From assembly GCF_000308655.1 (NCBI RefSeq), contig NZ_BAGC01000041.1:186001-250000 (forward strand): a stretch of 64,000 bases of DNA, in the 5' to 3' direction. The number at the start of each line of letters is the position of its first letter. The first letter of the stretch is position 1. Shown here in pieces: positions 41,702-54,633 of this stretch. A model generated the notes under the pieces. The model was given only the letters and a program-made list of their open reading frames with translations. It had not been told where the DNA came from and made no database searches. The translations under genes and the position numbers were made by a program. This stretch comes from Nocardia niigatensis NBRC 100131 (GTDB lineage: Bacteria; Actinomycetota; Actinomycetes; Mycobacteriales; Mycobacteriaceae).

Positions 41702-42289
41702 CTAACGATGTCCGGTGGGGCTTTCCCGCGCGGTGAGTGTGTGCATCTCGTCGGCTGTCTCGCCGATGAACCGGGACAGTTCACGGTCGCCGTCCTGGCG
41801 GGTCCATCGCCCGAAGGCGGTGTGCAGCACCGCTATTCCGGCCTGACCGGCCAGCTCCGCCGCGGTGTCGGCCACGCCTCGGTCCCGCAGTGCGCCCGCG
41901 ATGGCCGCGGCCATGGTGGCGCTCTTGATCAATTCCCGTTCCCGCAGTTCGGGATTGGCATCAACGACGACCTGCCGTTGCAGCACCAGCGGCCGTCTCG
42001 GTTCGAAGACCTCGGCCGCGATCTCCTCGAGCGCGTACACCACCGCAGCCCAGGGCGTGGCATCGGCGGGAGCGGCGCCGACCTTGGAGATAAGCAGGTC
42101 TCGCAGTAGCTGCGAGCCGCCGAACAGCACCTCGCGCTTATCGGCGAAGTGGCGGAAGAAGGTGCGCTCGGTCAGTCCGGCGCGGGCGGCAATCTCGGTG
42201 ACCGTGGTGCTGTCGAACCCGTGCTCACGAAACAGCTCCAGGGCCGCCGCCTCCAGGCGGCCGCGCGCATTGGGTTCCCACCGGCTCAC
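41702..42289 (-). CDS. TetR family transcriptional regulator
   Basis: This complete 195-residue repressor starts at GTG 42289. The N-terminal HTH is ALELFREHGFDSTTVTEIAA then RAGLTERTFFRHFADKREVL, and a ligand domain follows. It is divergent from the NAD-dependent epimerase-like gene, with two palindromic operators between them, so it very likely represses both itself and that gene. Confidence 0.93.
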   Translation of the reverse strand: MSRWEPNARGRLEAAALELFREHGFDSTTVTEIAARAGLTERTFFRHFADKREVLFGGSQLLRDLLISKVGAAPADATPWAAVVYALEEIAAEVFEPRRPLVLQRQVVVDANPELRERELIKSATMAAAIAGALRDRGVADTAAELAGQAGIAVLHTAFGRWTRQDGDRELSRFIGETADEMHTLTARESPTGHR

Positions 42290-51174: not shown

Positions 51175-52323
51175 ATGTTCGGTCGGTTGGTTGCGGTGAC
51201 TGCCGCGGTGGCGGTATCGGTGTTGCAGGCCGGAGGTGCGCAGGCCGCACCCGGTTCGAGCATGCTGTCGGCACCGGGCGGGCCCATGCCGGTCGGTACC
51301 ACGACCATGCATCTGGTGCAGCACGACCGGCCCGATCCGTTCACGCCGGGCAGTGATCGCGAACTGATGGTGTCGGTGTTCTATCCGGCTGCCGATGTCA
51401 CGAATCTGCCTCGCGCACATGCGGTGTCCGCGGTCGTGCTGCCCTCGTTGGAGCGACAGCTGGGCATGTCGCTTCCGGTGTTGCTGTCGAACTCCTACCA
51501 GGATGCCCCAGTCGCGGCGGGCTCGTATCCGGTTGTGCTGTATTCGCCCGGGCAGAGCATCCCGAGATTGCTGGGTACCGGTACCGCAGAGGAACTGGCC
51601 AGCCGGGGGTACGTCGTCGTCACTGTCGACCACACCGGCGATTCCCCGGTGGTCGAGTTCCCGGGTGGCCGGATTGCCGGGGCCGCAACGGAATTCACCG
51701 CACTGCCGGGTGGACAGCGGCGCGACATTCAGGTCGCCGATGTGGAATTCGTGCTGGACGCGTTGACCGCACTACATGCCGGTGCTGACCCGGATGCCGA
51801 GAATCGGCCGCTGCCTATGGGTTTGGGAGCGGCACTGGACCTCACCCGGGTCGGAACCTTCGGGCATTCGCTGGGCGGCACCACTGCCGTCGAGGTGGCG
51901 GCCCGGGACCCGCGCATCGATGCTGTCCTCGACATGGACGGCGCCATTTCGGACAGCGACGACTGGGGCAAGACCGGCACCGACGGTGTGCGTCAGCCCC
52001 TGTTGGTGCTGCGCAGCGCGCAGACCGTCGACAACGGCTCCGGACACGAAGCGTTCGCAGCGATGCTTGATCACGCCCAGACCTGGAAGGCGGAGCTGGA
52101 ACTGGCGAACTCCGCCCACGACGACCTCACCGACCTGAACCGGCTGATCCCCAGCCCGATGTCGATGGGCGGCGGCATGCTCGTCGGCCCGATCGCTCCC
52201 GCGCGTGCCGACGCCGCCCTGCGCACGATGGTGACGAGCTTCTTCGACAAATTCTTGCGTGGCAACGGATCTACCGTCCTGGAGCACCCGGAGACCATTC
52301 CGGATATCACCGTCATGCGCTGA
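51175..52323 (+). CDS. Secreted alpha/beta hydrolase (PAF-acetylhydrolase/lipase-like)
   Basis: This 382-residue protein has a signal peptide (MFGRLVAVTAAVAVSVLQAG, cleavage near AQAAPG). ELMVSVFYPAADV, YPVVLYSPGQSIPR, YVVVTVDHTGDSPVVEFPGG and the nucleophile elbow VGTFGHSLGGTTAVEVA (Ser in GHSLG) follow. VLDMDGAISDSDDW comes next, as in platelet-activating-factor acetylhydrolase-like esterases. The late His of the triad is likely in NSAHDDLTDL. It should act outside the cytoplasm on lipid esters. Confidence 0.88.
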   Translation: MFGRLVAVTAAVAVSVLQAGGAQAAPGSSMLSAPGGPMPVGTTTMHLVQHDRPDPFTPGSDRELMVSVFYPAADVTNLPRAHAVSAVVLPSLERQLGMSLPVLLSNSYQDAPVAAGSYPVVLYSPGQSIPRLLGTGTAEELASRGYVVVTVDHTGDSPVVEFPGGRIAGAATEFTALPGGQRRDIQVADVEFVLDALTALHAGADPDAENRPLPMGLGAALDLTRVGTFGHSLGGTTAVEVAARDPRIDAVLDMDGAISDSDDWGKTGTDGVRQPLLVLRSAQTVDNGSGHEAFAAMLDHAQTWKAELELANSAHDDLTDLNRLIPSPMSMGGGMLVGPIAPARADAALRTMVTSFFDKFLRGNGSTVLEHPETIPDITVMR

Positions 52324-52704
52324 GGCCGGTCGACCTTCGAGCCTTCTTCGACCCCGCCAACAGGATTGGTCTCGATGGCACCGTGGCGCACCGCGATTGC
52401 CATCACCGCCTCACGGATGATCGGCCCGCGGATTCCTCAACAGCTGCCGCTGAAGAAGACGGACAGCGCTGAGGTGGAGTGGATTGGCGTCGTTGTGTTT
52501 GCTGCCGACAGCACGAACGAGGCCAGTGACAGCAGGGCGGTGACGGCCATAGCGCGGCCAGGAATGATGCTCGCGGATCGTGTCAGAGCGGCGGAACTGG
52601 CTAGGGAGGTTCTTTCGTACTCGGGTCCGACAACGCTTCCCATTCTGTGTGCGATCCGGCGGCCCCGCTACGGCCACTCGGGTGGAGATCCGGCCAGACG
52701 GCGA

Positions 52705-52760
52705 ACGTGGGCACGCACGGGCGGCCCGGGATGATCTCGGGCCGTCGATCTTCGGGTGGG
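52705..52760 (+). repeat. Dispersed repeat copy: hairpin A and linker
   Basis: CGGCCCGGG-ATGAT-CTCGGGCCG (52722-52744) pairs with one G-T, followed by TCGATCTTCGGGTGGG. Confidence 0.8.
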
Positions 52761-52829
52761 TCTAGCCCGGCCGGAACGGGCATGTGCAGCTTGCTGATTC
52801 GAGCGCGGTCCCACGGTAGCGATCGAAAA

Positions 52830-52893
52830 TCTAGCAACGCTAGACAAGCTGGCGGACGAGTGTTACTGTCGCTCCAGTTCCTAGCGGTGCTAG
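52830..52893 (+). promoter_or_regulatory. Paired CTAGC-N3-GCTAG operators
   Basis: TCTAGCAACGCTAGA (52830-52844) and CTAGCGGTGCTAG (52881-52893) are perfect inverted repeats of the same type with centres 50 bp apart, 108-170 bases upstream of the PPOX-type gene. A dimeric repressor or activator binding both is likely. Confidence 0.7.
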
Positions 52894-53001
52894 AACAGCG
52901 GGAAGCGCGACAGGCAACAGCTTGCACTTCCCGCAACCCACGAACTTCCGGCTGATCGCCGGGAGCACACCTGATATCGCATTCACCGAGGAGTAAGTGA
53001 C

Positions 53002-53400
53002 ATGACCTTCACCAGCAATGAACAGCAGTTCCTCGCGGAGGCCGGGATCGGCCGGCTGGCCACGGTGTCGCCCGACGGCGTTGTGCAGAACAACCCGACC
53101 AGCTATCGGGTGAACGCCGACGGCACGATCGACATCGGGGGCATGCGGATGCGTGGCAGTCGAAAGTTCCGCAATGTCGAGGCGGGCAGCCGGGTGTCGT
53201 TCGTCATCGACCAACAGGTTTCCTTGGAGCCCTATGTGATTCGCGGGATCGAGGTGCGCGGCACGGCCGAGGCGCTCGATGACGAGGAGCCGCCGTTTCC
53301 TCCCCAGGAGCGCGCGGTCATCCGAATTCACCCCGAACGGATCATCTCCTGGGGCATCGACGGCGGATCCTTCGACTTCACCAGTCGCGGCGCCGAGTAG
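53002..53400 (+). CDS. PPOX-class F420/FMN-dependent oxidoreductase
   Basis: This 132-residue split-barrel protein opens FTSNEQQFLAEAGIGRLATV then SPDGVVQNNPTSYRVNADGT, the pattern of PPOX-class F420-dependent family proteins in actinobacteria. It ends IHPERIISWGIDGG, the usual C-terminal motif. It binds FMN or F420 and reduces small substrates. GAGGAG precedes ATG 53002. Likely controlled through the two CTAGC palindromes upstream. Confidence 0.88.
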   Translation: MTFTSNEQQFLAEAGIGRLATVSPDGVVQNNPTSYRVNADGTIDIGGMRMRGSRKFRNVEAGSRVSFVIDQQVSLEPYVIRGIEVRGTAEALDDEEPPFPPQERAVIRIHPERIISWGIDGGSFDFTSRGAE

Positions 53401-54183: not shown

Positions 54184-54633
54184 ATGACACATGAGTCGAT
54201 GGCGGCGCCCGAGCCCCTCACCGACCAGGAGTACTCGAGACTGCTGGCGTTCCGCGCCGGACTACGCCGGTTCCTGCGTTGGAGTGAGCGGCGGGCGGCC
54301 GACGTGGGACTCACCGGCGCTCAGCATCAACTGCTGCTGGCGATCCGGGGCCATCGCGACCCGAGCGGGCCCAGCGTCGGAGAAATCGCGGAATATTTGA
54401 GCGCCCGCCACCACAGCGTGGTGCAGCTGATCGATCGCACCGAGCAACTCGGGCTCGTCGCCCGCAAGCGGGAGGAGGGCAAGGATCGCCGCGTCGTCCG
54501 CCTCACCCTGACCGAGACCGGCCACCAAACCCTCGCCCTGCTCAGCACTACCCATCTGGAAGAGCTTCAGCGACTGACCCATCTCGTCGACGCGATACCG
54601 GACCCGAGCGCCGCCCCTCCGCAGGGACGGTAG
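54184..54633 (+). CDS. MarR family transcriptional regulator
   Basis: This 149-residue winged-helix protein reads RFLRWSERRAADVGLTGAQH, VGEIAEYLSARHHSVVQLID (recognition helix) and RKREEGKDRRVVRLTLTETG (wing). ATG 54184 lies immediately behind the palindrome, leaving no room for a Shine-Dalgarno site, so either leaderless translation or a start at ATG 54199 applies. It is divergent from the SPW gene. Confidence 0.92.
   Translation: MTHESMAAPEPLTDQEYSRLLAFRAGLRRFLRWSERRAADVGLTGAQHQLLLAIRGHRDPSGPSVGEIAEYLSARHHSVVQLIDRTEQLGLVARKREEGKDRRVVRLTLTETGHQTLALLSTTHLEELQRLTHLVDAIPDPSAAPPQGR

Follow-up and report, generated by a model that had tools for sequence, protein, structure and literature searches.

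Two CTAGC-N3-GCTAG palindromes stand upstream of a PPOX-type gene in the 64-kb stretch of the Nocardia niigatensis genome analysed here (the window), and comparison across genomes makes it very likely that they serve a LodR1-type TetR repressor, encoded in trans, as its outer operators. Sequence comparison shows the arrangement to be widespread, with this pair as one instance. We further propose, with a confidence that falls a little short of even, that these two sites are the recognizable members of a mirror-symmetric array of four dyads (at 0, 18, 32–33 and 50–51 bp) over which several TetR dimers would assemble cooperatively, covering two back-to-back promoters. Such arrays would mark a widespread actinobacterial regulon that joins small membrane proteins (Anthrone_oxy/DUF1772, DUF4267) with redox enzymes (F420-type PPOX, ABM monooxygenase). 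The regulon would probably respond to quinone-like or phenolic compounds.

The motif occurs exactly twice in the window, with the two centres exactly 50 bp apart, as the initial annotation had recorded (Table 1). Outer dyad 1, TCTAGCAACGCTAGA at 52830–52844, is a perfect palindrome, and outer dyad 2, CCTAGCGGTGCTAGA at 52880–52894, has a perfect 13-bp core and one mismatch in its outermost pair. The annotation had also held that CTAG is usually rare in GC-rich actinobacterial DNA and that two such palindromes are unlikely by chance, and both statements stand. The window contains 29 CTAG tetramers where second- and first-order Markov models expect 53–65, and four of the 29 sit within the array at 52830–52894; 100 dinucleotide shuffles gave 0.00 expected copies of CTAGC-N3-GCTAG against the two observed. 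The genome-wide motif search that the annotation had called for found five exact copies in the 8.22-Mb genome, all at three promoters (PPOX, Anthrone_oxy-like and TetR). With any spacer of 0–9 bp allowed, 12 inverted repeats of this kind were counted genome-wide: five with N3, four with N7, two with N5 and one with N2, an excess at N3 (Poisson P of at least five given 7/9, 0.001).

Table 1. Features of the operator array and its target gene, in window coordinates.
Feature	Position	Strand	Basis and remarks
Outer dyad 1, CTAGC-AAC-GCTAG, 10/10	52831..52843	none	Sequence; palindrome extends to 52830–52844
Predicted −35, TAGACA	52841..52846	+	Sequence and consensus; overlaps outer dyad 1
Inner degenerate dyad, CTGGC-GGA-CGAGT, 4/10	52849..52861	none	+18 from outer dyad 1; mean 6.27/10 over 26 genera
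Inner degenerate dyad, TTACT-GTC-GCTCC, 5/10	52863..52875	none	−18 from outer dyad 2; mean 6.85/10, 26 genera
Predicted −10, TACTGT	52864..52869	+	Sequence and consensus TAccGT; 17 bp after −35, overlaps second inner dyad
Outer dyad 2, CTAGC-GGT-GCTAG, 10/10	52881..52893	none	Sequence
Leader, 108 bp	52894..53001	+	Parts align to Anthrone_oxy-like/PPOX intergenic spacer of relatives with the operon
Putative ribosome-binding site, GAGGAG	52988–52993	+	Sequence
Target gene, 132-aa PPOX-fold protein	53002..53400	+	TIGR04023 PPOX_MSMEG_5819, 131.7 bits

The downstream gene is of PPOX type, as annotated: its score against TIGR04023 (PPOX class F420-dependent oxidoreductase; Table 1) exceeds the curated cut-off of 85.6 bits. 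No solved structure related to the protein was found at E≤0.001; the matches were weak, the best being Rv2991 (E 0.011). The putative −35 and −10 elements are embedded in the array, and transcription is predicted to start near 52876. Across arrays the consensus is CTAGCaNcGCTAGACA ... TAccGT ... CTAGCgNtGCTAG. The −35-like TAGACA is kept in the PPOX, Anthrone_oxy-like and LodA-type groups and is absent from the 50-bp DUF4267 group, which reads GCTAGccat there and so does not retain the ACA.

The long leader of the initial annotation is indeed present, and it looks like a leftover operon spacer. It aligns with the Anthrone_oxy-like/PPOX spacer of relatives at 90% over 99 bases (L210), 90% over 84 bases (L201) and 95% over 61 bases (L204), and with spacers in other loci through shorter or weaker matches, down to 79%. 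The simplest reading of these alignments is that the window leader is the spacer of an operon whose first gene was lost between operator and spacer. At another PPOX locus (L206) the full array and the end of an Anthrone_oxy-like gene are still visible, with no intact first gene scored, suggesting a locus partway through losing the first gene of its operon. We found no Rfam family at E≤0.1 over 52300–53200 and so do not favour a structured RNA leader.

The second pair in the genome, also spaced by 50 bp, ends 23 bp ahead of the coding sequence for a 158-aa membrane protein that matches Anthrone_oxy (PF08592) weakly, at 20.9 bits and below the cut-off of 27.3. This array (contig C53; L006:5080–6900) lies between the Anthrone_oxy-like gene and a divergent isocitrate lyase gene; since a similar lyase neighbour is found at two further loci (L029 and L148), the array might also touch lyase expression.

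The fifth copy is on another contig, 9 bp ahead of the start codon (ATG) of a TetR-family gene (C70:44161–44739, minus strand); the 192-aa product of this gene, P0002, is our candidate regulator. P0002 has the length and domains of a LodR1-type protein (TetR_N, 47.9 bits; TetR_C_33, 47.3 bits), and the operator core is present at the promoters of the target genes and at that of the regulator gene itself. Its similarity to the FasR and SACE_7040 TetR families of NCBIfam is weak and mostly confined to the DNA-binding half, with scores of 51.1 bits (cut-off 330) and 52.1 bits (cut-off 250) that fall far below both equivalog cut-offs. Within the DNA-binding part, EYSQPVLYSHF is nearly invariant across 29 aligned TetRs, 28 of which are 43–78% identical to P0002. 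The annotation was right that the regulator is not adjacent. Because regulator and target are on different contigs, their link rests on the motif and on comparison, from which we infer that the Nocardia TetR binds and represses.

The TetR locus of this genome has only one outer dyad, the second being absent. After this lone dyad the sequence resembles, by eye, a membrane transporter gene fragment (L007:8162–9211, contig C70). The regulator gene does not stand beside a DUF1772 or DUF4267 gene in this genome, and no DUF4267 or Anthrone_oxy match was found in the 17 kb around it. The genome's single DUF4267 gene (C71:19910–20227; L229) has no operator copy with up to two mismatches upstream, which places the family outside the regulon here; unlike its relatives beside TetR, this gene seems either to have dropped out of the regulon or to represent another paralogue.

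The closest described system is LodR1 of Streptomyces sp. FXJ1.172. LodR1 is a 192-aa TetR that represses lodA (DUF1772) and lodB (antibiotic biosynthesis monooxygenase) and recognizes the core CTAGCGTTGC. Its footprint at lodA runs from −52 to +38 relative to the start, and none of the four antibiotics tried (lasalocid, ampicillin, apramycin and chloromycetin) released it from DNA; SCO6121 and SVEN_3912 are homologues (PMC10100954). Compared with LodR1–lodA/lodB, the Nocardia system is alike in its 192-aa TetR, in a DUF1772-type membrane gene as target, in a LodR1 core that fits CTAGC-N3-GCTAG and in a protected stretch of ~90 bp that fits the 63–64-bp array, and it is unlike in having its regulator in trans and, in the window, a PPOX gene as target. 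Placed on the predicted start near 52876, the reported LodR1 footprint would run from about 52824 to 52913 and cover the window array.

The same paper names Streptomyces sp. IMTB 2501 as the source of a 97% identical LodR1 homologue (PMC10100954). In this strain (L151) we found a 51-bp pair, a 192-aa TetR with the same TetR_N and TetR_C_33 domains, an Anthrone_oxy gene and an ABM gene. Its TetR is 52% identical to P0002 over 185 residues; judging by strain, length and neighbours, it is probably the 97% homologue. The exact ten bases of CTAGCGTTGC were not found in L151, which has CTAGCGTTGATTC at the inner dyad instead; they are present in 23 of the 41 LodA-type arrays. In what could be seen of the paper, one core sequence and a palindromic structure are described, with no mention of a spaced pair or a four-dyad array (PMC10100954). 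The literature searched, with subscription journals mostly outside it, yielded no other description of the operator or regulon and none joining DUF1772 with PPOX.

Site and regulator co-occur within the genus. We sampled 148 genomes evenly out of a larger group; a TetR match at E≤1e-40 is present in 126 of them (two matches in 2 genomes, one in the rest). Exact sites are found in 133 genomes, comprising 124 of the 126 with TetR vs 9 of the 22 without (Fisher p 3e-11, kinship ignored; 2 of the 22 were identified by elimination). TetR is present with no exact site in two genomes, G028 and G099. Of the 16 single sites in genomes without TetR, 13 were retrieved, and not one of these is near a regulon gene; the sole pair in such genomes is in one that is 78% complete. 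At the 58 genus loci fetched, which are part of all, a regulon-family match (TetR, PPOX, Anthrone_oxy-like or DUF4267) starts within 300 bp at 26 of 26 pairs and at 21 of 32 singles.

A PPOX match (E≤1e-50) is present in 87 of the 148 genomes, and TetR accompanies it in 85 of these, vs 41 of the remaining 61. The best 30 of the 89 genus PPOX loci, the window's included, were compared with one mismatch allowed: all 30 have an exact site upstream and 29 a second site at 50–51 bp, giving 20 exact pairs, nine with one outer dyad mismatched and one single-site locus. PPOX follows an Anthrone_oxy-like gene in an apparent operon at 19 of these best 30 loci and was scored alone at 11. Comparison shows the pair, at 50–51 bp, before Anthrone_oxy-like and PPOX genes elsewhere in Nocardia.

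Beyond the genus, species genomes were scanned for two copies of CTAGC-N3-GCTAG 35–65 bp apart, which returned at least 119 loci. Between neighbouring sites, the spacing at the 119 loci listed is 50 bp in 44, 51 bp in 58 and 52 bp in one, or 103 of 119, and the other 16 are scattered; some of these, among those listed, are repeat tracts in other phyla. Two Amycolatopsis arrays (L094 and L114) fall under other spacings because a third dyad lies in between and only neighbouring sites were paired. Taking any two sites, 105 listed loci have a 50–52-bp pair. A TetR homologue, sought with six family members as queries, lies within 300 bp at 82 of the 103 listed loci spaced by 50–52 bp and at five of the 16 other listed loci, with none at 11. 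In the stretch examined, 21 of the 103 listed loci have no TetR beside the array; in four of these the array lies within 700 bp of the end of that stretch.

The gene neighbouring the array at the 103 listed loci is a LodA-type Anthrone_oxy gene in 43, DUF4267 in 43, a Nocardia Anthrone_oxy-like gene in four and PPOX in three; one of these families is thus found at 93 and none at 10. At 75 of the 105 listed loci with a 50–52-bp pair, the array lies between TetR and a target-family gene. The side-gene table, for which a crude frame caller was used, so that some 'other' genes are not real, left out L076, L093, L153 and L155, whose sites extend over >90 bp. Pfam confirmed PF14087 and PF08592 on the representatives scanned, and beside other arrays it found an ABM monooxygenase (L142), a cupin as second gene (L109), a BBE-type oxidase (L144) and a patatin (L166). 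Comparison shows the same paired arrangement, at 50–51 bp, between TetR and a divergent neighbour gene in many actinobacterial genera; we take all 26 genera sampled for arrays to be actinobacterial. In Occallatibacter savannae (L112), an acidobacterium, a TetR with 44% identity occurs together with DUF4267 and an Anthrone_oxy-like gene, and the two sites are separated by 62 bp.

Two further observations concern the make-up of these loci. In Actinorhabdospora filicis (L155), a TetR homologue is accompanied by three exact dyads spaced by 54 and 54 bp (3 × 18), which may represent an enlarged array. At 13 loci (L035:2186–2398 and 12 others), DUF4267 has a small gene after it; one of these small genes was scanned and is DUF4287, and they may be further members of the regulon.

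Could the palindromes belong to a regulator closer at hand? The window encodes a MarR-family protein (54184–54633) and a TetR (41702–42289), both predicted to bind DNA, and nearby regulators often act locally. But TCTAGCNNNGCTAGA, with up to three mismatches, has no match between 53663 and 55506, a span that includes the MarR promoter, or within 1 kb of this second TetR gene, whereas the motif tracks LodR1-type TetRs across genera. We consider a different regulator of this kind very improbable and set both local candidates aside, as no site lies nearby. Chance, or a mobile or repeated element carrying CTAG palindromes, is less credible still. Unlinked single copies do exist at a low level, since 11 of the 32 single-site genus loci have no regulon-family match, and some loci in other phyla are repeat-rich (L076, L093 and L115). 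Against this reading stand the 0.00 copies expected in the window, the fixed spacing at 103 of the 119 listed loci and the three different genes downstream of the sites in this genome; it is already contradicted by the linkage and spacing data.

The annotated reading of a paired operator upstream of the PPOX gene is thus supported, with the refinement that the array appears to have four dyads and not two. The two degenerate dyads proposed 18 bp inward of the outer pair are new here. Their means over 26 genera (Table 1) compare with a maximum of 3.73 over 2,000 shuffles; the test used one hand-picked array per genus, and the shuffles keep single-base composition only. The 126 arrays left after removal of identical arrays and loci of unknown orientation, as was also done for the consensus, agree at 6.05–6.65. 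In L114, dyads of 10, 10, 9 and 10 of 10 lie at 0, 18, 32 and 50. An overlapping dyad at +9 (CTAGACAAGCTAG-like), which scores 8–9/10 at this genome's three arrays, was set aside for the 18-bp reading; it is disfavoured because it has its left half in common with outer dyad 1, and the two could not be occupied together.

We give somewhat less weight to the reading that only the two outer palindromes bind protein and that the inner sequence is conserved as promoter (−10) and for spacing. The right inner dyad overlaps the predicted −10, and both inner dyads are degenerate in the window. A few further offsets score slightly above the shuffle maximum, and the register 27 bp before outer dyad 2, a possible alternative, reaches almost the same level (6.46/10 over 26 genera, with 5.68 in the 50-bp set and 6.06 in the 51-bp set); most of that comes from its right half, GCTAGC being self-complementary. 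The left inner dyad, however, is not accounted for by a −10, and the two inner dyads are at mirror-image places, 18 bp in from both ends, where their means exceed the shuffle maximum. Full dyads occupy the inner places in the two Amycolatopsis arrays (L114 at +18 and +32; L094, exact, at +33), and the published LodR1 core CTAGCGTTGC coincides with the inner right dyad in 18 of the 41 LodA-type arrays.

On the four-dyad reading, TetR dimers would bind the two outer dyads and, more weakly, the two degenerate inner ones. Bound dimers would cover the −35 (outer dyad 1), the −10 (inner dyad) and the start, outer dyad 2 beginning ~5 bp after it, so that RNA polymerase could not start. On binding a small ligand, which may be a quinone or a phenolic compound, the repressor would let go of the DNA and the redox and membrane genes would be turned on together; we infer this type of ligand from the company kept by Anthrone_oxy, ABM and PPOX enzymes. 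TetR probably represses its own gene too, since one operator lies at its own start codon. QacR- and CprB-type TetR proteins place two dimers on one promoter; by comparison, up to four non-overlapping, mirror-symmetric dyads (0, 18, 32–33 and 50–51) would be used here.

An orphan motif thereby gains a likely regulator, and DUF1772, DUF4267 and the MSMEG_5819-type PPOX, all of poorly known function, would be tied into one regulon. Besides the inner dyads, the reading of the leader as the spacer of an operon without its first gene and the Nocardia regulon are new here. Two CTAGC-N3-GCTAG copies 50–51 bp apart provide a signature for finding members in actinobacterial genomes, the shared regulon members narrow the search for the LodR1 ligand, and the proposed four-dyad layout would be a directly testable case of multi-dimer TetR assembly.
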